A stretch of 64,000 nt of DNA from a virus, in the IMG/VR virus record IMGVR_UViG_3300009443_000003, positions 1 through 64,000 of that record. One strand, given 5' to 3'. A program made the position numbers and the translations under genes. This document shows positions 3,132 to 52,015 of the stretch, one piece after another (within the stretch, counting starts at the first letter, position 1; every line of letters begins with the position of its first letter). Below the pieces are notes generated by a model, which searched no databases, was not told the origin of the DNA, and saw nothing but the letters and a program-made list of their open reading frames with translations.

Positions 3132-5898
3132 ACTAAGATTTTTTAACGGATTTGACTATGACATGAACATGGTCAAAGATGCTGATGGTATCTGGCAAGG
3201 TAACGTCTATCTAGATGAAGTATCTGTTGGTCTCTACGAAACGGCTAACATTTTCTTATTAGAGGAGACTGGCTACTACTATGCGGGTCAGACTACATCT
3301 GCTACAATGCCAGGTTTGATTCAGCCGATTGAAAATTCAGTTGGTTCAAAACTAGTTTGTAAATGGATTGATGAAAAAGGAACGTCTAGTGATATTTTTA
3401 TCTACGGTGCGGAAATGAAGAATGGCCAGCCCGTTATTACACACCATAAAGAGTTAACATTAGAGCCACAGCTACAGTCGGTTGCACCTTATAATGTTGT
3501 TGATGGTGTTAAGTATTATGAGAAGCTGGACTTTAAAAAATTGAGCAACCAGGCGCTGCAGTTAAATGTAGCTTTAAGATCTAATGCTGACGGACCACAC
3601 AGGCGCGTCTTAGGTATTTATGATGTAGTTAATGGAATTGAGACACAAGTCGCTCAGATTGCATTCTATGGCGAAGTGGTTGCCGAAGACGAAAGACTTA
3701 GAACTTTACTACAAAATTTCGGCGCAACTCTAGATGAAGGAGACTTCCTACTCTTTAAAGAGCACGACATCTCGGAACAAAGCCCAGACTATAAACTCTT
3801 AAACAGAAAGCGTAAAGAGCTCTTACTAGAGCTACATAATATTAAACCCTTCGTTGGTACTTACAAGGCAATCTTAAATGCGATTGACTTCTTTGGTTAT
3901 AGCAATATAACACTAAAAGAATACTGGATGAACGTTGACAAGAGCAAACCTTCTTTTGGTAAACTCTTTGCGATTCCTGTCCCTAATTCTTCGGTGCGCG
4001 GTGAGATGTTGCGTAAGAAGTTGACGGTACAGATCCCTTCAAGTACAATGAAGAAGACTAGTCGTTTTAGCCTAGTCTACAGATTAAACGAGCCGAACGG
4101 TGGTGTTGACCAGTGGGATATTCCAACCGTTGATGAGATATTTGAGTATACACCGGATGAAATCTTAATCAAGCTCTATGGTTTAAAGCAGAAATTACAG
4201 CGTGAATATCTGCCATTAAATACTAAGATTGTAGATATTACAGCAGAAGGTGACTACTTTACTCAGAGAAACTTAAATGTATGGAACGTTCAGAATGAGA
4301 TTGGTTTTATAAGTGAGGGTCATGATATTAAATTTAAGGTTGCGCCAGAAGGTAGAACTCTCTTTATTGAGGATTTGGGTCTAGTGCTAGAGACAACTTT
4401 AGATAAGAATAGTGCTGACTATCAAACATACTTAGGTTTTACACCAGCTGATTTTGCAATAGCAACTACATCTCAACTACAAGAACTCGAAGATATTTAC
4501 AATGAGTTCTACGAGTACTACATTGAAAGAGACTTAAGGACGTTTAACCAGGATATTCCAGTTGGCTGTCCGGTTATCTTAGACGGTAGTGAAACTTTTA
4601 GGGACACTTGGTTCGACGGTGGTTTTACATGGGACGATGCTATTGACCCGAACTCACAGCTCTTAGTAACTTGGGATAACTGGTGGAAACGCTGGGTTTA
4701 TGAAGTTGAATGGCTTGTAACTGGACCTAATGGTTTTAGCTTTGAAGTTCGCGGTGATATTGACAACTATCTAACAATGCCAATTATAGTACCTTACGAA
4801 GGCAGCTATACGGTTGAGATGAGAGTTTATGACCTTTTTGGCCATCGATCACACTATAGAGAAAGAGATCTTTTTCAAGTTGAACTAAAAGACGTTGAAC
4901 TCTATGGAGTCTATAAGTGGTTAGACCCAGTAAGATGGAATGATAAAGGCTTAACTTGGAATAAGTCAGGTGGCTATTGGGATAACGCTCAAGACAGTAG
5001 TGTAACTGTAGACCAGGCAATTGCAAGTCTATCCAATACGCTAGACAGGGCTAATTATTTACACGATGAAAGCCAAGGTATTAGGTTTTCAATGGTAAGA
5101 AGGTATAATGACACGTTAACTGAAACTGGTTTTTCAGAGACTACTGGGCCGTACCAATTTGATGAATCTAGGTTTAGATGGAGAGACACTGAACATCTTT
5201 CTTGGAATGCAACTAGGGTTGGTAGTGATTTGTCTGCATCTTTTAAAGTTTACGATATAGAGAATGGCGATGAAATTGCGATTGACTTTAAAGATCCAAA
5301 TACTGAAGTTATTACAACAGGTTCACATGTGATTACAAGCAATACGGCAAGCTCGCCGGTTAACACAGCTCAATATGAAGCTGAATGGGAAGCAATTAGA
5401 GATGAATTAAATAACTCAACCAATCCAATCATTCAGAAGTTTAACTGGAACGCAGTTTTTCACGATACTAATGGTGACGGCTATGCTGATACATTTTTGT
5501 ATATGCTGGCTGTAGGTAAAGAGTACTCTAAGAATTATGACTTTGAGAGTGTTACCGTAACGCCAAATGGCGCAAGTGCTATTTTAGCCGATGGAGAATT
5601 ACACGTGGTTCACTATAATCCAGGTTTTGATGATACTAAGATTTTTAGAGAATATACTGAGGTTGAAAGATCAACTCACGTTACAATTGCAGCTGATGCT
5701 ACTAACATGCCGGGTATTAAAAACCCAAAGTGGGGCATTGTAAACAGAAGCAACCCTGAAATAAATGATATATACTATGATAGTATGTGGTTAACCTACA
5801 TATTCCAAGACCCAGGTACTTATGAGATTACACTTGAGGTTGAAGATACCAATGGTAACCACAACGTCGTCAAACGTAATATGATAAATGTAAAATAA
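3121..5898 (+). CDS. Large baseplate wedge-like protein with PKD/Ig-like domains (gp7 position)
   Basis: A 925-residue protein directly after gp25 and gp6, the place where T4 carries the 1032-residue wedge protein gp7. Sequence identity to gp7 cannot be seen by eye, so this is a positional call. Residues about 478-585 form a Trp-rich PKD/Ig-like domain (VILDGSETF, then VTWDNWW, then PYEGSYTVEMRVYD). Residues about 870-925 form a second typical PKD end (DPGTYEITLEVEDTNGN). A region near residues 205-260 is rich in charged residues and resembles a helical docking segment. Such domains often decorate baseplates or anchor fibres. The start at 3121 overlaps the previous gene by 11 bases. Confidence 0.7.
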   Translation: MYDKLRFFNGFDYDMNMVKDADGIWQGNVYLDEVSVGLYETANIFLLEETGYYYAGQTTSATMPGLIQPIENSVGSKLVCKWIDEKGTSSDIFIYGAEMKNGQPVITHHKELTLEPQLQSVAPYNVVDGVKYYEKLDFKKLSNQALQLNVALRSNADGPHRRVLGIYDVVNGIETQVAQIAFYGEVVAEDERLRTLLQNFGATLDEGDFLLFKEHDISEQSPDYKLLNRKRKELLLELHNIKPFVGTYKAILNAIDFFGYSNITLKEYWMNVDKSKPSFGKLFAIPVPNSSVRGEMLRKKLTVQIPSSTMKKTSRFSLVYRLNEPNGGVDQWDIPTVDEIFEYTPDEILIKLYGLKQKLQREYLPLNTKIVDITAEGDYFTQRNLNVWNVQNEIGFISEGHDIKFKVAPEGRTLFIEDLGLVLETTLDKNSADYQTYLGFTPADFAIATTSQLQELEDIYNEFYEYYIERDLRTFNQDIPVGCPVILDGSETFRDTWFDGGFTWDDAIDPNSQLLVTWDNWWKRWVYEVEWLVTGPNGFSFEVRGDIDNYLTMPIIVPYEGSYTVEMRVYDLFGHRSHYRERDLFQVELKDVELYGVYKWLDPVRWNDKGLTWNKSGGYWDNAQDSSVTVDQAIASLSNTLDRANYLHDESQGIRFSMVRRYNDTLTETGFSETTGPYQFDESRFRWRDTEHLSWNATRVGSDLSASFKVYDIENGDEIAIDFKDPNTEVITTGSHVITSNTASSPVNTAQYEAEWEAIRDELNNSTNPIIQKFNWNAVFHDTNGDGYADTFLYMLAVGKEYSKNYDFESVTVTPNGASAILADGELHVVHYNPGFDDTKIFREYTEVERSTHVTIAADATNMPGIKNPKWGIVNRSNPEINDIYYDSMWLTYIFQDPGTYEITLEVEDTNGNHNVVKRNMINVK

Positions 5899-37541: not shown

Positions 37542-38030
37542 ATGAAACATGTAAAATTATTCGAACAATTTCTAAATGAGGATGTTAAAGTTAAAGGTAA
37601 TATCTCAGAAGAAACAGCTAATGAATTGCTTGATTTTCTAAAACGGGCTATCGGTAAAAAATTAAACTGGAAAGAATTTTCAAAATGGCATGGTGGAGCT
37701 GCTCAATTAGGTAAAAAATCACCAGCACAAAAAAAGTTCTTAGAAGCCAATTATGAATGCGAGATTGTAGATGTTACAATGCGCTACTTACCTAAGTATA
37801 AAAATGCTCAGTATTCAGTGTCATATCTACAAAATACATCATGGCATGGCTCTCCGCATGTCAAAGAAGCGCCACTTTTATTATATAAAGATGATCCTAA
37901 TTGGACACCAGAGGAAGGCGATACTAAAGATAGGGCTTTAGAAAAAAGTCTTGAAAGGTACCATGACGAAAGGCAATGGGACAGATTTTCAGATATAACT
38001 AGAATAGGTCGATTCACGCCCTATTTATAA
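37542..38030 (+). CDS. Small capsid-targeting-type protein
   Basis: A 162-residue protein starting MKHVKLFEQFLNEDV, a textbook form of the capsid-targeting-like peptide used by this phage, with a candidate cleavage LNE-D after residue 13. The remainder contains a Trp/His-rich region (WKEFSKWHGG, then NTSWHGSPHV) and a charged C-terminus. It is preceded by 103 bases of A/T-rich sequence containing ATATTTAC at 37490-37497, possibly a promoter. No function beyond probable head localisation can be read. Confidence 0.6.
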   Translation: MKHVKLFEQFLNEDVKVKGNISEETANELLDFLKRAIGKKLNWKEFSKWHGGAAQLGKKSPAQKKFLEANYECEIVDVTMRYLPKYKNAQYSVSYLQNTSWHGSPHVKEAPLLLYKDDPNWTPEEGDTKDRALEKSLERYHDERQWDRFSDITRIGRFTPYL

Positions 38031-38041
38031 TAGGTCGATTC
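38003..38041 (+). repeat. 13-bp direct repeat spanning a stop codon
   Basis: AATAGGTCGATTC occurs at 38003-38015 and again at 38029-38041. The first copy is in the last codons of the 162-residue protein, and the second begins at its stop. A 26-bp period suggests a partial tandem duplication. Confidence 0.85.
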
Positions 38042-38059
38042 GATGTTCATTAATTCAAT

Positions 38060-38818
38060 ATGCCAAGTACTTCAAAAGCACAACAGAGACTAATGGGAAT
38101 GGCTTACGCTTATAAAAAGGGTGAGCTTGATGCCAAAGAGGCTAGCCAGGAGGTAAAAGACCTAGCAGACTCTATGACATTAAAGCAGCTTAAGAAGTAT
38201 GCTGCAACAAAACATGAAGGACTACCAGACAAAGTGGACGACAATCTTCAACCAGGAGATGTTGGTGGAATGGGACCAATCAAATTCCCAACAGCAACTG
38301 AGACCGGTTCTGGTGATGTTCCTGCAGGCCAAGGCGATGCAGAAGAAGAATATAAAAAGAAACGTAGAAAAATGAAACACTTAAAGAACTTTGAACAGTT
38401 TATCAATGAATCTCAATTCGCTGATGATAGTACTTCTAATCAAGATGCTAAGTTAAGGCTAAAAGAACGTACAGAACTAACAAAAAAATTAATTAAGGCA
38501 ACCGGGATTACAACATGGGAAGTAGACTATAGCCATGGTTTTTTTACCATGAATACAAAGACTAAAGGAAATACCGGAACTGAAATATTTGGAATAAAAG
38601 ATTTGGATTATAGTTTTACTTGGAGAATTCTTAACTCTGACGATTATGAACCATTGGCACCAAAAGAAATGCAGATAGTCGCACAACCAACAGACGGCAG
38701 CGGAGGTCGTACCAAACGCAATTGGTATGTAACAAAAGGTAATGTTGCTACAATTGATGATGTTATAAAAGCAATGTCAAACTTAGAGGTAGGTAAATCT
38801 GGTTGGAAACAAGCATAA
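38060..38818 (+). CDS. DUF3008-like domain fused to a capsid-targeting-type protein
   Basis: A 252-residue protein. Residues 1-58 (PSTSKAQQRLMGMAYAYKKG, ending KHEGLPDKV) match the small phage/bacterial domain of unknown function DUF3008. A Gly/Pro-rich acidic linker leads at residue 105 to MKHLKNFEQFINES, an exact capsid-targeting-like peptide that would be a normal protein start (ATG 38372) in its neighbours. The last 130 residues form a small beta domain. Either the gene is a fusion of two older genes or a second protein is made from the internal start. Both the fused peptide and the adjacent genes point to a head-localised protein. Confidence 0.65.
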   Translation: MPSTSKAQQRLMGMAYAYKKGELDAKEASQEVKDLADSMTLKQLKKYAATKHEGLPDKVDDNLQPGDVGGMGPIKFPTATETGSGDVPAGQGDAEEEYKKKRRKMKHLKNFEQFINESQFADDSTSNQDAKLRLKERTELTKKLIKATGITTWEVDYSHGFFTMNTKTKGNTGTEIFGIKDLDYSFTWRILNSDDYEPLAPKEMQIVAQPTDGSGGRTKRNWYVTKGNVATIDDVIKAMSNLEVGKSGWKQA

Positions 38819-38835
38819 AACAATAAAATAAAAAA

Positions 38836-39249
38836 ATGAAACACTTAAAGAACTTTGAATCCTTTCTTAATCCAGGATCTGAAAACGCAGTTTATGAAAA
38901 AATAAAATTCGGATCTTACTACTTTAATAAAGGACAATTTAGTGAATTCGATCTACCTGCTAAAGGAGAAACTGCATATGCTTTGATTGCACATAATACC
39001 GTTGAGGTTAACAAACAATCCATGTATTTAAGATCTGAAGGAGATATGAACATTGGTGCTGGATTTAGACCTACGGTACTTGCCGTTGCTGAAGATGAAG
39101 CATCGATTAAAGCAGCATATGATACACAACTAAAAGTTGGAGGAACTGGTGCAAATCTTTCTTTCTCATATGGGACTATTACAGTTAAGGGTAATAATGT
39201 ACCATTTACAGAGATTGGCGGCCATTTGGCAAAAGGAAATATAAAATAA
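38836..39249 (+). CDS. Small capsid-targeting-type protein without the cleavage Glu
   Basis: A 137-residue protein starting MKHLKNFESFLNPG. The first 24 bases of the gene are identical to those at the internal start 38372, but the usual Glu of the LNE site is replaced by Pro-Gly, so protease cleavage may be lost. The rest is beta-rich with a FSYGTITVKG segment near the end. It sits 17 bases after the preceding gene and 4 bases before the next. It may be an uncleaved internal protein. Function unknown. Confidence 0.6.
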   Translation: MKHLKNFESFLNPGSENAVYEKIKFGSYYFNKGQFSEFDLPAKGETAYALIAHNTVEVNKQSMYLRSEGDMNIGAGFRPTVLAVAEDEASIKAAYDTQLKVGGTGANLSFSYGTITVKGNNVPFTEIGGHLAKGNIK

Positions 39250-39253
39250 AAAA

Positions 39254-39772
39254 ATGAAACATCTAAATAACTTTGAATCTTTCGTAAACGAATCATATGA
39301 CGGTAACATGTCAGACTTTAAATATGAGTTTCCAATGAAGTTTGAAGAAGTAACAGGTAATCCAGAAAAAGCTATCAAGAGAATCACTAAGAGCGGTAAA
39401 GGTTATGAAGTTAGAACCTCAACTTACATGAGTGAAGACGAAATGAAAGCTGTTGGTGCTGCAATGAACTTGGATCTAATCAGTTATAACAAAGGTAGCA
39501 ACGTTGCAATTACAGTTTATGAGTCTAAAGTCAACGAAGAATACATTGAACTTCCAAGTCTTGATGTACCTGCAACTGAATTGATTGATGCATTTAGACA
39601 ATGGTATAAAGACACCGCAGATAACTGGGAAGACTTTAAAGAAGACATGGCTGAAGATTCAGTTGATGAAGCAGCTAAGAACGCACAGATGGAAATCTTA
39701 GCTCACCTTTCTAATGAGATGAATGACATTATCAAAGACAGAAAATTTAAGGTTAGAGCAGACTTCAAGTAA
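39254..39772 (+). CDS. Small capsid-targeting-type protein
   Basis: A 172-residue protein starting MKHLNNFESFVNESYDG, with a candidate VNE-S site, and a second site-like VNEEY near residue 96. The body contains a beta-rich domain to about residue 90 and an acidic helical C-terminal half ending in a Lys/Arg-rich tail. It is the last gene of the capsid-targeting cluster and is followed by a strong terminator. A role as an internal head protein is inferred from the N-terminal peptide and the cluster. Confidence 0.6.
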   Translation: MKHLNNFESFVNESYDGNMSDFKYEFPMKFEEVTGNPEKAIKRITKSGKGYEVRTSTYMSEDEMKAVGAAMNLDLISYNKGSNVAITVYESKVNEEYIELPSLDVPATELIDAFRQWYKDTADNWEDFKEDMAEDSVDEAAKNAQMEILAHLSNEMNDIIKDRKFKVRADFK

Positions 39773-40492: not shown

Positions 40493-40529
40493 AAGCGGGG
40501 CAACATCAGAGCGCGTTGCCCCGCTTTTT
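40493..40529 (+). terminator. Very strong rho-independent terminator
   Basis: AAGCGGGGCAAC (40493-40504) pairs perfectly with GTTGCCCCGCTT (40515-40526) around a 10-base loop and is followed by TTT. It separates the small-gene unit from the modification-like operon. Confidence 0.95.
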
Positions 40530-40584: not shown

Positions 40585-40917
40585 ATGAGCGATTTAATAG
40601 ACAACATCTTAGAACAAGCAGACCAAATCATTAACCACAGATCAGAAGAAAAGAACCGCCAATACGGTCCTTTCGAAGAAGGCATGCGCAGAGCTGCGAT
40701 GATCTGTTCTGGTATGACTGGTAAGCAATTCACAGGAGCTGACATGTACGCCGCACTTGTTGCTCTTAAACTGAGCAGACACTCTTATAACTACAAGCAA
40801 GATAATTTGCTTGATGCTGCAGCTTATATCGGTGGCCTGGATAACTACATCCAAAAGTACGGCTACAAAGAGACAGAAAAACCACTAGAAACAGGCGACG
40901 CAGATGCAGGAATTTAA
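40585..40917 (+). CDS. DUF6378-like small protein
   Basis: A 110-residue protein with an N-terminal helix and a QYGPFEEGMRRAAMIC segment, then ADMYAALVALKLSRHSYNYK followed by DNLLDAAAYIGGLDNY. This arrangement (YGxF, a helix with a conserved K-x-[SA]-R, then D-N-x-[IL]-D-A-A-x-Y) matches the phage family DUF6378, whose members look like MazG-type nucleotide pyrophosphohydrolases. No activity is established for it. It heads a chain of overlapping genes and overlaps the SGNH-like gene by 14 bases. Confidence 0.6.
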   Translation: MSDLIDNILEQADQIINHRSEEKNRQYGPFEEGMRRAAMICSGMTGKQFTGADMYAALVALKLSRHSYNYKQDNLLDAAAYIGGLDNYIQKYGYKETEKPLETGDADAGI

Positions 40918-41983
40918 GTACTTTACAGATTATGAGCAAGACCACTCAATTAAGATTGGTATTGCAGCACTAGTTGGCAAATTAAGCCCAAAGGATAGTT
41001 CACATAAGTCCGGCTGGGCTTTCATGCTTTGTAATCAACTCTGGCATGCTGGTTTTAAGAATGCTGAAGTTATTACAGAGGTCAACGTGGATTGGTCAGA
41101 CTATGACGTAATCCTGATTGAACATGGTATGGAGTTTAAAGGTGCTTTCAATATCTTTGGCGGAGCCAACGATGATCTTTATCATCAGCTTAATCGCCTC
41201 TTTGTAGAAGGTGTAAGATTCTACAGTCTACACCATGATATGCCAGCTGTTAATGAACTAATTGAGAAACGATTAAAGACCGGTTCAGATCTATTCAAAA
41301 CGCTTGAGACAAGGATTGACGAGGCTAAAACAATATGCAGCCAGATTCCAAGAGTGGACCATATCGAGAAGACAGATAAACTCTGTTTTGGTGATAGCCA
41401 CTCTTTCAGCCAGTATACACCAGGTTATATGTGTGATCGCAACGACGGTCTAACACTCTTCGGCACTCTAAAGCGTGGCATGGAAGAATGCGTTTATCCT
41501 TGGACTAAAGAACTTAGAGTCTATCTAGGCAACATCGATATTAGACACCACTTAATGCGTCAAAAAGATCCAGAATCTGCATTAGAAGGTTTAATGCAGA
41601 ACTATGAAGGCGAACTTCTAAGAATGCAGGAACGTGGTATAGAAAAGATCGAGATTGTACAGGCTTTACCAATCGAGAATGAGTCTAGAGCCTTACCGAA
41701 GACCGGTTATTATAAAGGCACTCCTTTCGCTGGATCGTGGGAAGAACGCACTCACCTAGTTAATACCTTTAACTGGTATGTTAATGAGATGGGAGAACGT
41801 AATGGCTGGCAAGTATGGAAACACCCTGACGTTTATCTAAATTCTATTGGCGAATTAGACTTTGAAGTAATGGAAAAACCTAAATCAGTCCATATCGCTA
41901 GAAAATATTATAGATGGGATTTAACTAACAATGTACCTAATTCAAACCTAGAGAGTAGAGTACAATCAAATGCACTTTTTTAA
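40904..41983 (+). CDS. SGNH/GDSL-hydrolase-like protein
   Basis: A 359-residue protein. A Gly-Asp-Ser-His motif (CFGDSHSFSQ, residues 161-170) is a likely SGNH block I with Ser165. A later Asn-containing strand (YLGNIDIRHH) and a C-terminal His (KPKSVHIARKYY) could complete an esterase- or acyltransferase-type active site. Before it, about 150 residues form a separate alpha/beta domain with a Trp-rich start and a SLHHDMP segment. It overlaps the previous gene by 14 bases and the glycosyltransferase by one base. Candidate roles are acyl transfer or hydrolysis in a sugar or base-modification pathway. The family match is moderate. Confidence 0.55.
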   Translation: MQEFKYFTDYEQDHSIKIGIAALVGKLSPKDSSHKSGWAFMLCNQLWHAGFKNAEVITEVNVDWSDYDVILIEHGMEFKGAFNIFGGANDDLYHQLNRLFVEGVRFYSLHHDMPAVNELIEKRLKTGSDLFKTLETRIDEAKTICSQIPRVDHIEKTDKLCFGDSHSFSQYTPGYMCDRNDGLTLFGTLKRGMEECVYPWTKELRVYLGNIDIRHHLMRQKDPESALEGLMQNYEGELLRMQERGIEKIEIVQALPIENESRALPKTGYYKGTPFAGSWEERTHLVNTFNWYVNEMGERNGWQVWKHPDVYLNSIGELDFEVMEKPKSVHIARKYYRWDLTNNVPNSNLESRVQSNALF

Positions 41984-42014
41984 TGGAAAATTTAATGGAA
42001 AATTTAATGGAAAA
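41983..42014 (+). repeat. Tandem 12-bp repeat giving three in-frame start codons
   Basis: ATGGAAAATTTA occurs at 41983-41994 and 41995-42006 and is followed by ATGGAAAAA at 42007. The repeats encode MENLMENLMEK and supply three in-frame ATG codons at the start of the glycosyltransferase gene, the first overlapping the preceding stop codon. Confidence 0.9.
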
Positions 42015-42852
42015 ACGAAGTATTAATGAAAGAGTACTTATTACAGTAACGGGTACTTGGGCACCATCACATGCTAAAAATTGGATGGAATGTGAGATGA
42101 CATGGGTTAGTAAACTAAGAGAAAAGGGCTTTGATGTTGTCTATCTGGTGTCAAACCCACACTTAGATAAACCTTACGAAAGAGTTGGTAATTTCTTCTT
42201 TGTAAACTGTAAAGATGATCTAGATTCAATCTACCTTAAGAATCATTACTACGTCTCACAATATGTGAATAACGATACTGATTATGATTACAGATTTCAT
42301 ACAGATAGTGATACTTTTATTCACCCTGAGCGGTTTGTCGACCTACTAGAAGAATATGTTGATGAAAATCCTAAAGATTGGGTAGGCTGTACAATACCTT
42401 ATCCAGGCTTTAATACATGGACTTTAAATAAATGTGAAATATTACCCGGAAACTGGAACAATATCTCTTATTTTGCAAGCGGTGGTTCAGGCTTTTTATT
42501 GTCAAATAAAGCTATGCAAATACTGGTTGATGAGCTTGACTACGATTCTTATATTAATAAGACTAATCAAGAACCATGGGGTTCAGATAAATTATGGGCA
42601 TGTGATCTAATAGCAGGCCACTTCCTCTATAAGAATGGTATTAACCTATGGCATGATAGCCGAATTCTTTTCGAATCAAAATACCATCCTGTAATGGCTG
42701 ATCCGCATGGTGTTGGTCGACCCTTCGTGGGTGATAGAGACTCATTTATGACCGTTCAACACTATTGCAACGGCCATATGCGTGAAATCATGGAAATGCT
42801 CTATGGTAAAGACTGGGATAAAACTAAGATCTATCATGGCCATGACCGATAA
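41983..42852 (+). CDS. Glycosyltransferase, GT-A fold, Fringe/GT31-like
   Basis: A 289-residue protein. It has an N-terminal Rossmann-type strand (RVLITVTGTW), a DxD metal/nucleotide-sugar motif in YRFHTDSDTFIH (Asp108-Ser-Asp110), and, near residue 167, FASGGSGFLLSNKAMQ, which strongly resembles the A-S-G-G-A-G motif of Fringe/C1GALT glycosyltransferases. A later GSDKLWACD segment is typical of the acceptor-side loop. It would transfer a sugar from a nucleotide-sugar to an acceptor. In a phage, DNA bases, virion proteins or host glycans are candidates. Its start codon overlaps the previous stop (TAATG) and three in-frame ATGs are available, so the exact start is uncertain. Confidence 0.75.
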   Translation: MENLMENLMEKRSINERVLITVTGTWAPSHAKNWMECEMTWVSKLREKGFDVVYLVSNPHLDKPYERVGNFFFVNCKDDLDSIYLKNHYYVSQYVNNDTDYDYRFHTDSDTFIHPERFVDLLEEYVDENPKDWVGCTIPYPGFNTWTLNKCEILPGNWNNISYFASGGSGFLLSNKAMQILVDELDYDSYINKTNQEPWGSDKLWACDLIAGHFLYKNGINLWHDSRILFESKYHPVMADPHGVGRPFVGDRDSFMTVQHYCNGHMREIMEMLYGKDWDKTKIYHGHDR

Positions 42853-42864
42853 CAGAAAGAAGAT

Positions 42865-44073
42865 ATGACTAAAATTAAAACTAATAGATATTACGAAGAC
42901 TTTCTCTATTACTATCAGAAGGCAAAGGATCAGCAGAAGAAATGTAATCTAGGCTCTATTCCGCACCCAGAAAGCGGTATGGATGATAGCTTAATGGAGC
43001 ATGTTGAACTCTACGACGTAGTAGAGCGTAAGTTGGCAGGTTTTAGTCAGATCAAGAATGATGTATTCTATGGCTGGTCTAAAGAACACCCATACTGGTC
43101 AAAGATGCATGCCGGCAATGTCTCAGCTCAGCGTAAAGAAGTTGCTACCAACTGGACTGGCAAACAGAAAACATTCGGCATGGCCGAATGGTTCTACGTC
43201 TTCTTGCTACATGCTGTAACCGGCAGTGGCATTAACTATGCTAAGAAGCCATCAGGCTACCACAACTCACTGCTTTTTCATCTACATGAATGTGATACAA
43301 TTGAAGCTATGTGTGAGGTTGTTAAGACACATCCTAAGCCGTTCTTTACTTCGGTTGGGTATCAATTTCCAAAGTTCCCGAAGCCGCCTAAGGCTGAACC
43401 CAGTGGCTTTGTGGGCATGGAGGATTACTCTACTCAATTCCAGTATAAAAAAGGTGGCGACTACTACCTATGTGAGTTTGCACCAAGACTGGTTAGAGAG
43501 ATGGCAGACTGGATCCAGAAAGAGAACCGCAAGTTTCCACTTAGAGAACTTGGTGAATGGATGTTTGCATGGAATGAGAAGAATGGCCTGAATGCCTACA
43601 GATTCCAGTACGCAGCATTCTTGGCAGATATTGCAGACTTCTACCCAGAGTATATTGAGCTCTACAGTCCATTCTACTATGGCACAAATGCAGTTGAATG
43701 TATTAGCTATCTGGCAGATCCGGTAGGTAAGATGAACAAGATTGAATTTTTAGACGAAGTGATGCTGCAGATCAACCGAGATACAGGTGGAAGACCATAC
43801 GACGCAGAAGATGTTGCATGTGATTATATCCGTTGGGTTGAGAACTACGTGCGGCCTGGTGCAGCATATGACCATCTGGACTATGATAACCTATGGAACT
43901 CATCCAATATTAAGGACCATCCATTTGGTAGACAGAAAGCAATGCTGGAACTGGGTATTATCGAAACCTTTAACGGTATGAAACACCACCCGTCAGATGA
44001 TAAAGTTATTGCCGAGGCCGGTATTACAGTAGAACAATACAAAAATATGATAAAAGAGCACTATGTCGCATAA
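42865..44073 (+). CDS. Unknown 402-residue protein in the modification-like cassette
   Basis: No family was recognised. The protein is aromatic-rich and mostly helical, with several unusual segments: WSKEHPYWSKMHAGN (about residue 72), a central region with TGSGINYAKKPSGYHNSLLFHL and HECDTIEAM, and a C-terminal YYGTNAVECISYLADPVGKM. Conserved-looking His, Cys, Trp and Asp residues in this soluble protein suggest an enzyme. It is flanked by a glycosyltransferase and a PLP enzyme with short spacing (12 bases upstream, 11-base overlap downstream). One can ask whether it belongs to the thymine-hypermodification enzymes of T4-like phages, but the sequence did not match the families I could recall. 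Confidence 0.6.
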   Translation: MTKIKTNRYYEDFLYYYQKAKDQQKKCNLGSIPHPESGMDDSLMEHVELYDVVERKLAGFSQIKNDVFYGWSKEHPYWSKMHAGNVSAQRKEVATNWTGKQKTFGMAEWFYVFLLHAVTGSGINYAKKPSGYHNSLLFHLHECDTIEAMCEVVKTHPKPFFTSVGYQFPKFPKPPKAEPSGFVGMEDYSTQFQYKKGGDYYLCEFAPRLVREMADWIQKENRKFPLRELGEWMFAWNEKNGLNAYRFQYAAFLADIADFYPEYIELYSPFYYGTNAVECISYLADPVGKMNKIEFLDEVMLQINRDTGGRPYDAEDVACDYIRWVENYVRPGAAYDHLDYDNLWNSSNIKDHPFGRQKAMLELGIIETFNGMKHHPSDDKVIAEAGITVEQYKNMIKEHYVA

Positions 44074-44959
44074 TAAACACACAGGATTATTAATCAACCA
44101 GGATTTAAACTTGATGATGCCTAATCGTCAGGCTTGGCTAGATCTAGCCGGTGACTGGCAAGATCCGTTTCCAGACCCAATAGTTACAGAGCACAATGGC
44201 TTTAATGTAGTTAGAGAGGACATGATGGGCTTTGGTTCTAAGTGCCGTTTTGGTGACATCTTAGTAAGCACATGTGAAAAAGATACTCTAGTCTATGTAC
44301 AACCAAGATACGGTTTTGCAGGTATCTCACTTGCATATCTGGCCAAGAAGTATAACAAGAAGTTAGTTCTATTTAGTCCAAGTCAAAAGGAGATCTCAGA
44401 CCACCAGGCGATCTGTATTGAACGTGGCGCTGAGATGAAGTTTAAGCGTATTGCAGCAATGCCAGTCTTAAACGCACATGCTAAAAAATGGGCAGAAGAG
44501 AACGATGCTTTCTTTATACCGCTTGGGCTTAAACATGAACTAGTAACTGCAGCAGCTGTTAAAGTAGCTTATGATCTTGCAGAGAAGCAAGGCTATCCAC
44601 AAGAGGTTTGGTCGGCTATTTCAACCGGTGTTCTACAAAGATCTTTACAGATTGCATGGCCGGATGCAGATTTTCATGGAGTTGCAGTTGCACGTAACAT
44701 ACAGAAAGGCGAAAGAGGTAGAGCTACATTATGGTCACATCCAAAGGCTTTTACGCAGAATGTTGATGCAGAATTTTACCCTCCCTTTCCATCTGCACTA
44801 AACTACGACGCTAAGGCTTGGGAATTCATGCAGAAGCATGCCAGCCCTGGAGCCTGGTTCTGGAACGTAGGTGGTGACCCAAAGCCAGAAGACTCGATGA
44901 CCAAAGTAAACACTAATTCTTACAGAGAATGGGGTCAAGTTTTAACCGAAGACGTGTAA
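44063..44959 (+). CDS. PLP-dependent enzyme, fold type II (cysteine/threonine synthase-like)
   Basis: A 298-residue protein. Residues 51-64 (REDMMGFGSKCRFG) place Lys60 where fold-type-II enzymes bind pyridoxal phosphate. Residues about 75-95 follow with a substrate-binding loop and helix (VQPRYGFAGISLAYLAKKYNKK), and residues about 195-215 with SAISTGVLQRSLQIAWPDAD, as the usual S-G-G-[ST]-[GL]-x-x-G-[LI] region. It resembles ACC deaminases and cysteine synthases. In phages such enzymes have been linked to amino-group or amino-acid addition on modified thymines, which fits the neighbouring glycosyltransferase, but the reaction here is unknown. It overlaps the unknown gene by 11 bases. Confidence 0.7.
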   Translation: MSHNKHTGLLINQDLNLMMPNRQAWLDLAGDWQDPFPDPIVTEHNGFNVVREDMMGFGSKCRFGDILVSTCEKDTLVYVQPRYGFAGISLAYLAKKYNKKLVLFSPSQKEISDHQAICIERGAEMKFKRIAAMPVLNAHAKKWAEENDAFFIPLGLKHELVTAAAVKVAYDLAEKQGYPQEVWSAISTGVLQRSLQIAWPDADFHGVAVARNIQKGERGRATLWSHPKAFTQNVDAEFYPPFPSALNYDAKAWEFMQKHASPGAWFWNVGGDPKPEDSMTKVNTNSYREWGQVLTEDV

Positions 44960-44998: not shown

Positions 44999-45463
44999 AT
45001 GGCAAACACAGATAATAAATGTTCGGATCTTGACGTGGCAGATTTCCACTCAAATGCAGATGACACCTTTGGCTTAATCTTTAACAAGCAGAAAGAATTA
45101 CAAGAGCGTCTTGGCTTTAATTTTGAAGGCTGGACAATCAAAGAAATCGCTGACTTTTGGATGGTTAACAAACATGCATTAAGTGACGAACTCAACGAGA
45201 TGTTTGATGCCCTAGGCGGTATCAACGACGGTATTGGTAACGCAGGCTGGAAGTATTGGAAGCAAGACAATGCAAAAGCTGCTAACATGAAAATTGAAGA
45301 TCTATCCGAAGCAGACAAATTAGAACTCTTTTATGAATGGATTGACGGATTACATTTTTACATGAACTTTGCAATAGCAATTGGTATGACTAGTAAAGAT
45401 GTTGTTAATCTATACATGGCGAAGAACGCAGAGAATCACGACAGACAAGAAAGAGGCTACTAA
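44999..45463 (+). CDS. Dimeric dUTPase (all-alpha NTP pyrophosphatase type)
   Basis: A 154-residue protein with the helical dUTPase/MazG-superfamily pattern. It has an N-terminal E-x-x-x-Asp/Glu region (MVNKHALSDELNEMFDALGG), a GWKYWK helix, a metal-binding helix (KLELFYEWIDGLHFYMNFAI), and the characteristic C-terminal K-N-x-x-N-x-x-x-Q-x-x-G-Y end (KNAENHDRQERGY). It hydrolyses dUTP to dUMP, keeping uracil out of DNA and supplying the thymidylate precursor. It comes before DNA polymerase. The T4 dCTPase/dUTPase (gp56) belongs to the same all-alpha NTP-pyrophosphatase superfamily. Confidence 0.8.
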   Translation: MANTDNKCSDLDVADFHSNADDTFGLIFNKQKELQERLGFNFEGWTIKEIADFWMVNKHALSDELNEMFDALGGINDGIGNAGWKYWKQDNAKAANMKIEDLSEADKLELFYEWIDGLHFYMNFAIAIGMTSKDVVNLYMAKNAENHDRQERGY

Positions 45464-45483: not shown

Positions 45484-46887
45484 ATGCTATTAGACATTGA
45501 GCAGAAAGAAAATGAAGTAATCGTCAGCTACTACGATAAGAAAGGCGAAGTTTCATTTAAACGCTATCGCGTAGATAACTTTGAGAATTGGACAGTAGCT
45601 GAAGATAACGACAGATACAGAGACCAAAACTTTAAAAACTGGGACGGCAGAGCAATCAAACGCAAACGCTCAAGAACTTACAACAAATTCAGTCTACTCT
45701 ATTTTATGGACTCTCTGCCTGAAGCAGATAGAGAAGAGATCTTTGCATTCAACATGCCAAGAACATACTATGTCGATATTGAGACTGAGATTGTAGATGG
45801 CTTTCCAAGACCAGAAGAGGCTAAGAGTCGTATCTTAACTTTTTCGATCATTACACCAGAACGTAAAGCAATTGTACTTGGTCTAGATGACTTGAATGCA
45901 GAACAGATCAAGAAGATTGAAGATGACACTAACGCTCACTTCAAGAACTACGATCAAGACTGGACTTTTAGCTACTACAAGTTTAAGAATGAGTATGATA
46001 TGCTCTATAACTTCTTGCACAAGTTCTTGCCTAAGTTTCCAATGATGACCGGCTGGAACTTTATCAACTATGACTGGCAATATATTGTTAATCGCTGTAA
46101 GAGGCTACAGATTGATCTAACTGAAGTTGCAATCACAGGAGCACTAGACAAAAAAGACTCAAGACCATTACACATGGGTATTCTTGACTATATGCAGCTC
46201 TATGATAAGTATGATCGTTCGGTTGCGGTAAAAGAGTCTAACAAACTTGACTTTGTGTCAAGCCAAGTCTTGAATGTGGCCAAGATTAAATACACAGGTT
46301 CACTGCAAGATCTTTACGAGAACAACTTTCAAAAATATGTTTACTATAACGTAGTTGACTCTGTGTTGGTTTATTATATTGACCAACAGTTAAAGTCAAT
46401 GGAAGTCCTACTGACCTTATCAACTATTACTAAAATGCCACTCTATAAAGCAGCCAGCCCCGTTGCAGTAACAGAGTCTTTAATTGCAAGAAAGCTTGCA
46501 GAAGACAACGTTAAGATCGGCGTTGAGTATGACAAAGAGGACAGTAAGAAAGACGGTCAGTATGAAGGTGCTTTTGTAAAACAACCAATTGTTGGTTATT
46601 ACTCAGGAGTAAGTGCATTTGACTTTGCATCACTGTACCCATCGGTGATGAGGCAGTTTAATATCTCGCCGGATGCTTTCATTGAAATTGTACCGGAAGC
46701 TGAAATTGCCGAGCGCAGAAAAGATAATAACGTAATCGTTTGCGAGAACGGAGTTGTCTATAAAAAGGAAGATTCAATCCTAAAAAAGATCCTCAGCGAT
46801 CTATATGCACAAAGAAAGGAATACAAGAAGGCTTCATATGCTTATTATGAAAAAGCACATGAACTTCAAAAAAAATTTAGGCTCTAA
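45484..46887 (+). CDS. 43: DNA polymerase, N-terminal part (exonuclease and palm motif A)
   Basis: A 467-residue family B polymerase fragment. It contains the three exonuclease motifs: Exo I DIETE (Asp98, Glu100), Exo II near WNFINYD (about residues 190-200) and Exo III YNVVDSV (about 286-293). It also contains polymerase motif A DFASLYPS (residues 380-387). It ends about 60 residues after motif A (YKKASYAYYEKAHELQ) with a normal stop. Motifs B and C are missing and are found in the gene at 50807, so the two must combine to make an active gp43. The reading frame is intact; the split is a gene arrangement, not a frameshift. No intein residues were seen at the break. Confidence 0.9.
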   Translation: MLLDIEQKENEVIVSYYDKKGEVSFKRYRVDNFENWTVAEDNDRYRDQNFKNWDGRAIKRKRSRTYNKFSLLYFMDSLPEADREEIFAFNMPRTYYVDIETEIVDGFPRPEEAKSRILTFSIITPERKAIVLGLDDLNAEQIKKIEDDTNAHFKNYDQDWTFSYYKFKNEYDMLYNFLHKFLPKFPMMTGWNFINYDWQYIVNRCKRLQIDLTEVAITGALDKKDSRPLHMGILDYMQLYDKYDRSVAVKESNKLDFVSSQVLNVAKIKYTGSLQDLYENNFQKYVYYNVVDSVLVYYIDQQLKSMEVLLTLSTITKMPLYKAASPVAVTESLIARKLAEDNVKIGVEYDKEDSKKDGQYEGAFVKQPIVGYYSGVSAFDFASLYPSVMRQFNISPDAFIEIVPEAEIAERRKDNNVIVCENGVVYKKEDSILKKILSDLYAQRKEYKKASYAYYEKAHELQKKFRL

Positions 46888-50806: not shown

Positions 50807-52015
50807 ATGGATATAAAAGAGTTAGAAAATAAACCAATAGATCAATTGACTGATGCTGACGCTAAGCTGCTTGTAGATCACTACAAGCAGCTTTCAGCAA
50901 AGTATACAGCTTATGAGCAGGCGGTTAAGTTAACTCTTAACTCGATCTACGGAGCCTTTGGTAACAAATGGTTTCACTTCTTCAATATCGACATTGCAGA
51001 GTCAATTACAAAACAGGGTAAGAATGCTATTCTCTACTCAGAGTCAATCTTGAACAAATATGTTCAAGAATTTTGGCATAAAGACACTGCAGTTCACGAG
51101 CAATTCGGTATTAAAGTAAAGGGTAAAATAGAGAAGCCAGCTGTAATCTACATCGATACTGACTCATGTTACGTTCAGTTTCAAGATGTTTATGAGTCTA
51201 TCATCTGGGAAGATGAAAGTAAGAAGATGTCAATTGACGAGTTTATCTTAGCACTTTATGGCTTTAGACTTAATAATTATATTGTTAAGTGTATGGAGAT
51301 GTACGCTGAGAAACGTAATACTGATAACTTCTTAATGTTTGAGCTTGAGACTATTGCATATAATGGTATCTGGATGAGCAAGAAGAAGTACATTCAGAAT
51401 ATTGCATGGGACGATAAACTAGAGAAGACCGATCGACATGCGCCTCTGAAAAAGATTAAGACGATTGGATATGATACTATTCAATCTTCAACACCAGCAT
51501 TTGTAAGAGCAAAACTAGTTGAAGCACTTAAAATTATATTTAAGAGTGCTAAAACACCAAGTGCTGAAGAATTACAAGAACTTGTTCAATTCATGAAGCA
51601 GGTCAGAAAAGAGTTCCAGCTTGCAGATATTGACGAGATCTCATTTAACAGAAGGACAAACAATATTGAGAAATATATTGTTGACGACCAGATTGAATTT
51701 CAAGTTGGTCTAAAATGTCCGGCCAATGTTAAAGCAGCAGGTTACTACAACTACCTGCTTAATATGAACTCTAAATTTAAAACAAAGTATAAAGTAATTG
51801 GTAACGGTGAGAAGCTAAAGATCTACAACTGTAAGAGTCCAATCAGTGAAGTTTATGCCTATCTACCAGGTGAACATCCTTATGAGTTTGCACCAGAGAT
51901 AGACTACGACACTCAGTTTGAAAAGGCAATGATTGACCCGTTAAACAGAGTACTTACAGCAATCGGTCTACAGACACTTGACACTAATCTACTTTATGCA
52001 TCAGCACTATTTTAA
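50807..52015 (+). CDS. 43: DNA polymerase, C-terminal part (fingers, palm motifs B and C, thumb)
   Basis: A 402-residue protein. Motif B (KLTLNSIYG, residues about 41-50) and motif C (YIDTDS, about 114-120) of family B polymerases are present, together with the thumb region. Motif A and the exonuclease are in the gene at 45484, about 3.9 kb upstream. The first 35 residues (LENKPIDQLTDADAKLLVDH) are not typical polymerase and may be a subunit-docking extension. The C-terminus ends in SALF, similar to a clamp-binding tail. It must pair with the N-part to work. Separation by nrdB, nrdA and gp45 shows a stable rearrangement. Confidence 0.9.
   Translation: MDIKELENKPIDQLTDADAKLLVDHYKQLSAKYTAYEQAVKLTLNSIYGAFGNKWFHFFNIDIAESITKQGKNAILYSESILNKYVQEFWHKDTAVHEQFGIKVKGKIEKPAVIYIDTDSCYVQFQDVYESIIWEDESKKMSIDEFILALYGFRLNNYIVKCMEMYAEKRNTDNFLMFELETIAYNGIWMSKKKYIQNIAWDDKLEKTDRHAPLKKIKTIGYDTIQSSTPAFVRAKLVEALKIIFKSAKTPSAEELQELVQFMKQVRKEFQLADIDEISFNRRTNNIEKYIVDDQIEFQVGLKCPANVKAAGYYNYLLNMNSKFKTKYKVIGNGEKLKIYNCKSPISEVYAYLPGEHPYEFAPEIDYDTQFEKAMIDPLNRVLTAIGLQTLDTNLLYASALF

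Follow-up and report, generated by a model that had tools for sequence, protein, structure and literature searches.

A candidate DNA-hypermodification cassette, probably acting on 5-hydroxymethylcytosine, in T4-like phages

We analysed a five-gene cassette in a 64,000-nt stretch of viral DNA (the window) from the 81,151-bp IMG/VR record IMGVR_UViG_3300009443_000003, and we lean towards regarding it as a module for DNA hypermodification carried by a T4-like phage in which cytosine is replaced by 5-hydroxymethylcytosine (hmC). That the cassette modifies DNA is highly probable, that hmC is the modified base is probable, and amino-acid-type chemistry on that base stands evenly poised. The five open reading frames (ORFs) all lie on the + strand and overlap or abut, just as the original prediction, made from the sequence of the window, had described them: a DUF6378 protein (40585-40917; Pfam PF19905, E 1.3e-10), an SGNH/GDSL-fold protein (SG, 40904-41983), a GT31-like glycosyltransferase (GT, 41983-42852), a 402-aa protein predicted to be all-helical (U402, 42865-44073) and a pyridoxal phosphate (PLP) enzyme of fold type II (44063-44959), with positions here and below in window numbering unless a locus identifier is given. 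SG, U402 and the PLP enzyme form the core, with GT as an optional accessory. The prediction had proposed a multi-step modification of DNA bases, and this is largely supported: the PLP enzyme falls in the family of Pseudomonas phage M6 gp52, U402 is structurally nearest to proteins named amino acid:DNA transferases (ADDTs), and the core is operon-linked with a dCMP hydroxymethylase in distant phages.

The PLP enzyme and U402

The PLP enzyme matches phrog_7093 with an E value of 1.2e-41 and, below the Pfam cut-off, the PALP family (E 8.5e-5). M6 gp52 lies in the same phrog_7093 family (E 2e-159), which is annotated as threonine dehydratase. Lysine K60 is invariant in the family alignment and aligned with the PLP lysine of cysteine synthases, and a PFP..YD.K.W signature is common to the enzyme, M6 gp52, Erythrobacter phage R6L gp1 and Microcystis phage Mae-JY30. 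These alignments place the protein among the fold-type-II PLP enzymes, in the family of M6 gp52. In other phages, homologues of the enzyme are fused to DNA methyltransferases or encoded beside them; in R6L gp1 (L011:10930-13352) the PLP domain splits in two a DNA methyltransferase that has a ParB-like N-terminal region.

M6-like cassettes encode a pyrimidine hydroxymethylase, Nmad5, aGPT-Pplase1, a kinase, a radical SAM protein, the PLP enzyme and aGPT-Pplase2 (PMC9476957), and M6 DNA contains 5-(2-aminoethyl)deoxyuridine (5-NedU) (PMC6449724). These two papers, together with general knowledge, are the basis for the role that we give to M6 gp52. The PLP gene of M6 comes immediately after gp51, its aGPT-Pplase2 gene. 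M6-like cassettes likewise have the two genes in this order (PMC9476957), and here U402 stands ahead of PLP in the same way.

U402, which the prediction had listed as a protein of unknown function, has no usable Pfam or PHROGs match. Its AlphaFold2 model is all-helical, with a mean predicted local distance difference test (pLDDT) score of 76.6 and a predicted template modelling (pTM) score of 0.76. A structure-based search with Foldseek against BFVD returned, at rank 1, a protein that is named as carrying an amino acid:DNA transferase domain (57% identity, E 2e-31) and, at rank 4, another protein of that name (E 0.013, probability 1.00). AGOG DNA glycosylases are among the weak matches in the PDB. 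From the modelled fold, though not from sequence profiles, U402 is likely a member of the ADDT family, of the aGPT-Pplase2-like type. At locus L171, an HhH-GPD DNA glycosylase gene (4018-4815; PF00730, E 9e-10) lies immediately upstream of U402, and its product perhaps removes wrongly modified bases.

The phage and its modified base

The window derives from a T4-like phage. A 176,489-bp IMG/VR contig (G001) matches its entire length at 99.9-100% DNA identity, with the window corresponding approximately to G001:39,110-103,109, and G001 is the same phage and supplies the remainder. The prediction was correct that the window itself holds neither a dUMP hydroxymethylase nor a kinase, and thymidylate-synthase-like and kinase genes were sought elsewhere in the genome; a hydroxymethylase of the dCMP type was found in G001, and kinases of the 5-hydroxymethyldeoxyuridine (5-hmdU) and T4 types were not.

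The sole thymidylate-synthase-family gene of G001 encodes a 278-aa enzyme that lies outside the window. At the selectivity position of this family, Asp marks dCMP enzymes and Asn marks dUMP enzymes. In our alignment the G001 enzyme has Asp, as does gp42 of Aeromonas phage 31, and M6 gp58 and true thymidylate synthases have Asn; by this residue it is a gp42-type dCMP hydroxymethylase. Asp is also present in all of the hydroxymethylases compared from cassette-bearing phages (8/8), and no dUMP-type (Asn) hydroxymethylase occurs in the 176 kb contig. Phages 31, Aes012, AS4 and PTm1, which carry other SG types, have a second, weaker thymidylate-synthase-family gene consistent with gp42. By inspection of its sequence, G001 additionally encodes a dCMP deaminase.

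Directly downstream of the cassette, the gene at 44999-45463 (+ strand; PF08761, dUTPase_2, E 3.6e-9) matches T4 gene 56 by tblastn (E 7e-14) and hundreds of other T4-like records, many of them annotated dCTP pyrophosphatase. Its product is an all-alpha dCTPase-dUTPase of the T4 gp56 type. Given the Asp-type hydroxymethylase and the gp56-type dCTPase, the substrate is most likely hmC rather than thymine.

A guanylate-kinase-like protein (PF00625) is encoded in G001, and its gene recurs in six other cassette phages and is not found in phages 31, Aes012 and PTm1. From its family, it is a candidate for an activating kinase. Immediately 5′ of this gene lies what appears by inspection to be an Fpg/Nei-like DNA glycosylase gene (G001:131,832-133,179; L108:11832-13179).

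The SGNH/GDSL-fold protein

SG has no Pfam match, and the SGNH-like call of the prediction was borne out at the level of the fold. The AlphaFold2 model (pLDDT 87.4) gave 38 matches at E<=1e-3 in a PDB fold search, nearly all of them SGNH/GDSL esterases. The sequence holds a GDSH block I, a GNID block III and an SVH histidine, and the GDSH, GxIDxRHH and SVH columns are invariant in 33 SG homologues. Model and motifs together confirm an SGNH/GDSL fold for the predicted structure. A resemblance of the SG N-terminal domain to the acceptor domain of T4 beta-glucosyltransferase is not claimed, as the latter is absent from the 50 best hits in the PDB.

An SG homologue forms the N-terminal half of PHG31ORF233c, a 795-aa protein of Aeromonas phages 31 and 44RR2 (phrog_17781). 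The C-terminal half of this protein gives weak matches to the helical domain of 5-hmdU DNA kinases (PF18723, E 0.0036; phrog_2396, E 0.0057). A profile comparison of U402 with this half, and likewise with the accessory protein X390 described below, gave no support for homology. In Aes012 the SG gene adjoins UDP-galactopyranose mutase, and in Tenacibaculum phage PTm1 it follows the ribonucleotide reductase genes.

Conservation and divergence of the cassette

The core genes SG, U402 and PLP recur in more than 100 viral contigs at 27-100% identity and in several gene orders. A scan of IMG/VR seeded with SG yielded 212 confirmed relatives, of which 80 loci were kept (89 SG ORFs and 88 U402 ORFs), and a scan seeded with X390 yielded 257 confirmed relatives, of which 80 were kept and 69 were new loci. 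The recurrent order in the SG-seeded set is DUF6378 - SG - U402 - PLP - dCTPase - PolB, mostly at about 50-100% identity. Among the 69 X390-seeded loci, many of them on truncated contigs, U402 is present in all 69, SG in 61, PLP in 54 and GT in none. At L175-L179 the order is U402-X390-SG-PLP, with the members still together. Since gene order varies in this way, the linkage exceeds inherited synteny.

A gp42-type hydroxymethylase gene lies just upstream of the cassette in the distant loci L166/L168 and L172. Two T4-like contigs found in metagenome-assembled genome (MAG) bins, L216 and L217, have the run Nmad1-like - hydroxymethylase - dCMP deaminase - U402 - (X390) - PLP - SG, which in L217 is followed by a C5-cytosine methyltransferase. 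Neither U402 nor GT had a tblastn match among 50,697 phage records, and the module is thus almost unrepresented among cultured phages. Among 84,980 bacterial and archaeal species, a non-exhaustive scan with two short patterns found U402 homologues in four phage-like contigs in MAG bins and in no others, host glycan loci included. The cassette appears to be widespread in environmental T4-like phages.

Purifying selection acts on every gene of the cassette (dN/dS 0.03-0.11). Relative to L007, synonymous divergence is 0.4-1.5 in SG, GT, U402 and PLP and about 0.1 in DUF6378 and dCTPase. Sliding identity picks out the same block: between near-identical phages SG to PLP is 74-94% identical, with flanks mostly at 90-100%. 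Because divergence is raised in this block and low in DUF6378 and dCTPase, the functional unit is suggested to run from SG to PLP. The pattern may be that of an exchanged or diversifying unit, like anti-restriction modules.

Glycosyltransferase and accessory genes

GT carries a DSD motif and reaches 21.4 bits against the Galactosyl_T profile (PF01762, E 2.4e-4), below the curated cut-off of 23. It is confined to the subclade of the window phage, being 81% identical in L007/L009 and absent from L005 and L006/L028 as well as from every X390-seeded locus. The prediction had counted GT among the pathway components; it is better described as accessory than as core. In four other loci (L150/L161-L163), a GT2 gene (PF00535) and a UDP-galactopyranose-mutase-like (UGM-like) gene stand between PLP and dCTPase (for example, L161:7833-10110), and by sequence this pair may be an alternative sugar module.

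The position of DUF6378 is held in distant phages by ‘Nucleotide modification associated domain 1’ (DUF1599) proteins, with PF07659 matches in L172 (E 0.0022) and L216 (E 1.1e-6). Position is the sole evidence for placing the DUF6378 protein in the functional unit. X390, a protein of ~350-390 aa with no Pfam match, is encoded between U402 and PLP in 22 loci (L089:9443-10612 and 21 others) and is absent from the window phage. A LOG-family protein (PF03641) is encoded between X390 (or U402) and PLP in 15 loci (for example, L064:4897-5616); the LOG family is of the nucleotide N-glycosidase type and is here found inside a putative DNA-modification cassette. Three loci have a CitG-like (triphosphoribosyl-dephospho-CoA synthase) gene between SG and U402 (for example, L129:3989-4783).

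Flanks of the locus

The prediction had placed the cassette between a strong terminator and a dUTPase gene. The terminator stands: an intrinsic terminator at 40495-40529 (+ strand), 5′ of the cassette, is supported by sequence and fold, with a 10-bp GC-rich stem, a 10-nt loop and TTTTT. A consensus terminator scan restricted to loops of <=8 nt overlooked it. The downstream neighbour is the gp56-type dCTPase-dUTPase described above instead of the dUTPase. Further 3′ are a fragment of a family B DNA polymerase and then ribonucleotide reductase genes; the polymerase is split into two ORFs (45484-46887 and 50807-52015) with the ribonucleotide reductase genes between them.

Ten ORFs across the window and G001, all on the + strand, start with a MKHLKNFEQFINE-like signature. 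Four of these genes stand in tandem directly upstream of the cassette (37542-39772), and similar tandem genes precede it in many relatives. We take the signature to resemble the capsid-targeting peptides found at the N termini of T4 internal head proteins. Some T4 internal head proteins shield modified DNA against type IV restriction.

Proposed pathway and alternatives

In the pathway that we propose, the gp56-type dCTPase and the gp42-type hydroxymethylase would, by homology, make hmdCMP, which would then be phosphorylated and polymerised. By analogy with known systems, some kinase would activate the hydroxymethyl group in DNA by converting it to a phosphate or a pyrophosphate. U402, judging by its fold, may then flip the base out and couple an amino acid or amine to it, and the PLP enzyme could process the attached amino acid, for example by decarboxylation, as is thought for its M6 relative. 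SG, with its esterase-type fold, would remove or add an acyl group, and in some strains the GT31-like enzyme would add a sugar. The phage would thereby be shielded against restriction and other defences that target DNA. Tentatively, and with slightly less than even confidence, we take this to be an undescribed class of hypermodification that is widespread in environmental T4-like phages, with an amino-acid- or amine-derived group placed on hmC through an ADDT-like transferase and a PLP enzyme, with SGNH (often also X390 and LOG) proteins as new components, and with a swappable sugar step.

Several results weigh against this proposal. No U402 member had an ADDT match in Pfam (0/37 and 0/12), a profile-profile comparison of U402 with M6-type ADDTs gave no support, and PF18724 was found in none of four genomes. 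The 5-hmdU-type DNA kinase (HMUDK, the M6 gp54 family; phrog_800) has no match in the 176 kb contig, no T4 gp1-type dNMP kinase was detected (PF21448 matched phage 31 alone), and the radical SAM domain PF04055 is absent from seven cassette-bearing records. No gp42-type hydroxymethylase was recovered from the large cassette contigs G008 (165 kb), G009 (150 kb) and G012 (183 kb), which are possibly fragments. Finally, SG is found in Aeromonas and Tenacibaculum phages that lack U402 and PLP, which gives it a role beyond that in the cassette.

Thymidine hypermodification of the M6/ViI type, acting on 5-hydroxymethyluracil in DNA, is close to the precedent that the original prediction named, and the gp52-family PLP enzyme, the ADDT-like fold and the M6-like order of U402 and PLP all fit it. 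The hydroxymethylases argue otherwise, given that Asn-type enzymes are missing from the 176 kb contig and Asp is found in the cassette phages, as does the gp56-type dCTPase beside the cassette; the failure to find HMUDK and radical SAM proteins counts here too. We consider this model improbable, with hmC the likely base. A modification of hmC by sugar only, in which SG and GT would place an acylated sugar while U402 and the PLP enzyme make a nucleotide-sugar or amino-sugar precursor, is unlikely, if a little less so. It would account for the GT31-like gene, the UDP-galactopyranose mutase beside SG in Aes012 and the GT2 and UGM-like genes of L150/L161-L163, and there is precedent in the arabinosyl- and pentosyl-cytosines of T4-like phages (PMC6024577, PMC12838424). 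However, close relatives lose GT and keep SG, U402 and PLP, and U402 resembles DNA-acting transferases rather than sugar enzymes. Sugar aminotransferases are also usually not of fold type II, unlike the PLP enzyme here.

The remaining two explanations would place the cassette outside DNA modification. The nucleotide-metabolism neighbours (dCTPase and ribonucleotide reductase) and the threonine dehydratase annotation of the PLP family would suit auxiliary metabolic genes for free-nucleotide or amino-acid metabolism that leave no DNA adduct, but the U402 fold and the PLP family indicate DNA-acting systems, as do the PLP relatives fused to DNA methyltransferase, and we judge this very unlikely. 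Modification of surface or host glycans, the alternative named in the prediction, draws on the glycosyltransferase and the SGNH esterase fold, both frequent in glycan loci. It is unsupported by the species scan, which within its limited reach met U402 in phage-like MAG contigs and in no glycan locus, and it sits poorly with the tight linkage to hydroxymethylase, dCMP deaminase, dCTPase and DNA polymerase, leaving it the least credible of the alternatives and highly improbable.

Relation to known systems

The proposed hmC module shares with M6 and relatives such as SN1 a phrog_7093 PLP enzyme, a pyrimidine hydroxymethylase encoded by the phage itself and, in several loci, an Nmad-type accessory protein; the gene directly upstream of PLP, which in M6 is aGPT-Pplase2, is here that of U402, with its probable ADDT-like fold. 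It differs in its dCMP-type (Asp) hydroxymethylase and adjacent dCTPase, in the radical SAM and HMUDK genes not found, and in the addition of SGNH and X390; moreover, U402 is not alignable by sequence with M6 gp51. With the T4 hmC system (gp42, gp56 and glucosyl- or arabinosyl-transferases) it has in common a gp42-type hydroxymethylase, a gp56-type dCTPase and, in the window strain, a glycosyltransferase, hmC here being predicted from the genes. Unlike in T4, the glycosyltransferase is optional and of a GT31-like type, PLP, ADDT-like and SGNH proteins make up the core, and no T4-type dNMP kinase was matched. PHG31ORF233c of phages 31 and 44RR2 resembles the cassette in joining SG to a modification-type domain (the weak kinase-helical matches), whereas those phages have no U402 or PLP homologues and no homology was detected between U402 and the C-terminal half. 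R6L gp1 and Mae-JY30 share the PLP family, but there the PLP domain lies within or beside a ParB/DNA-methyltransferase system, and SG and U402 are absent.

In the literature that we found, the phage modifications of hmC are glycosylations, and amino-acid-type hypermodification is described for thymine. If the proposal is true, a cytosine version would be a new base chemistry with new DNA-modifying enzymes, and it would present a new target for type IV restriction and other defences. The swappable GT would offer a natural comparison between near-identical phages.

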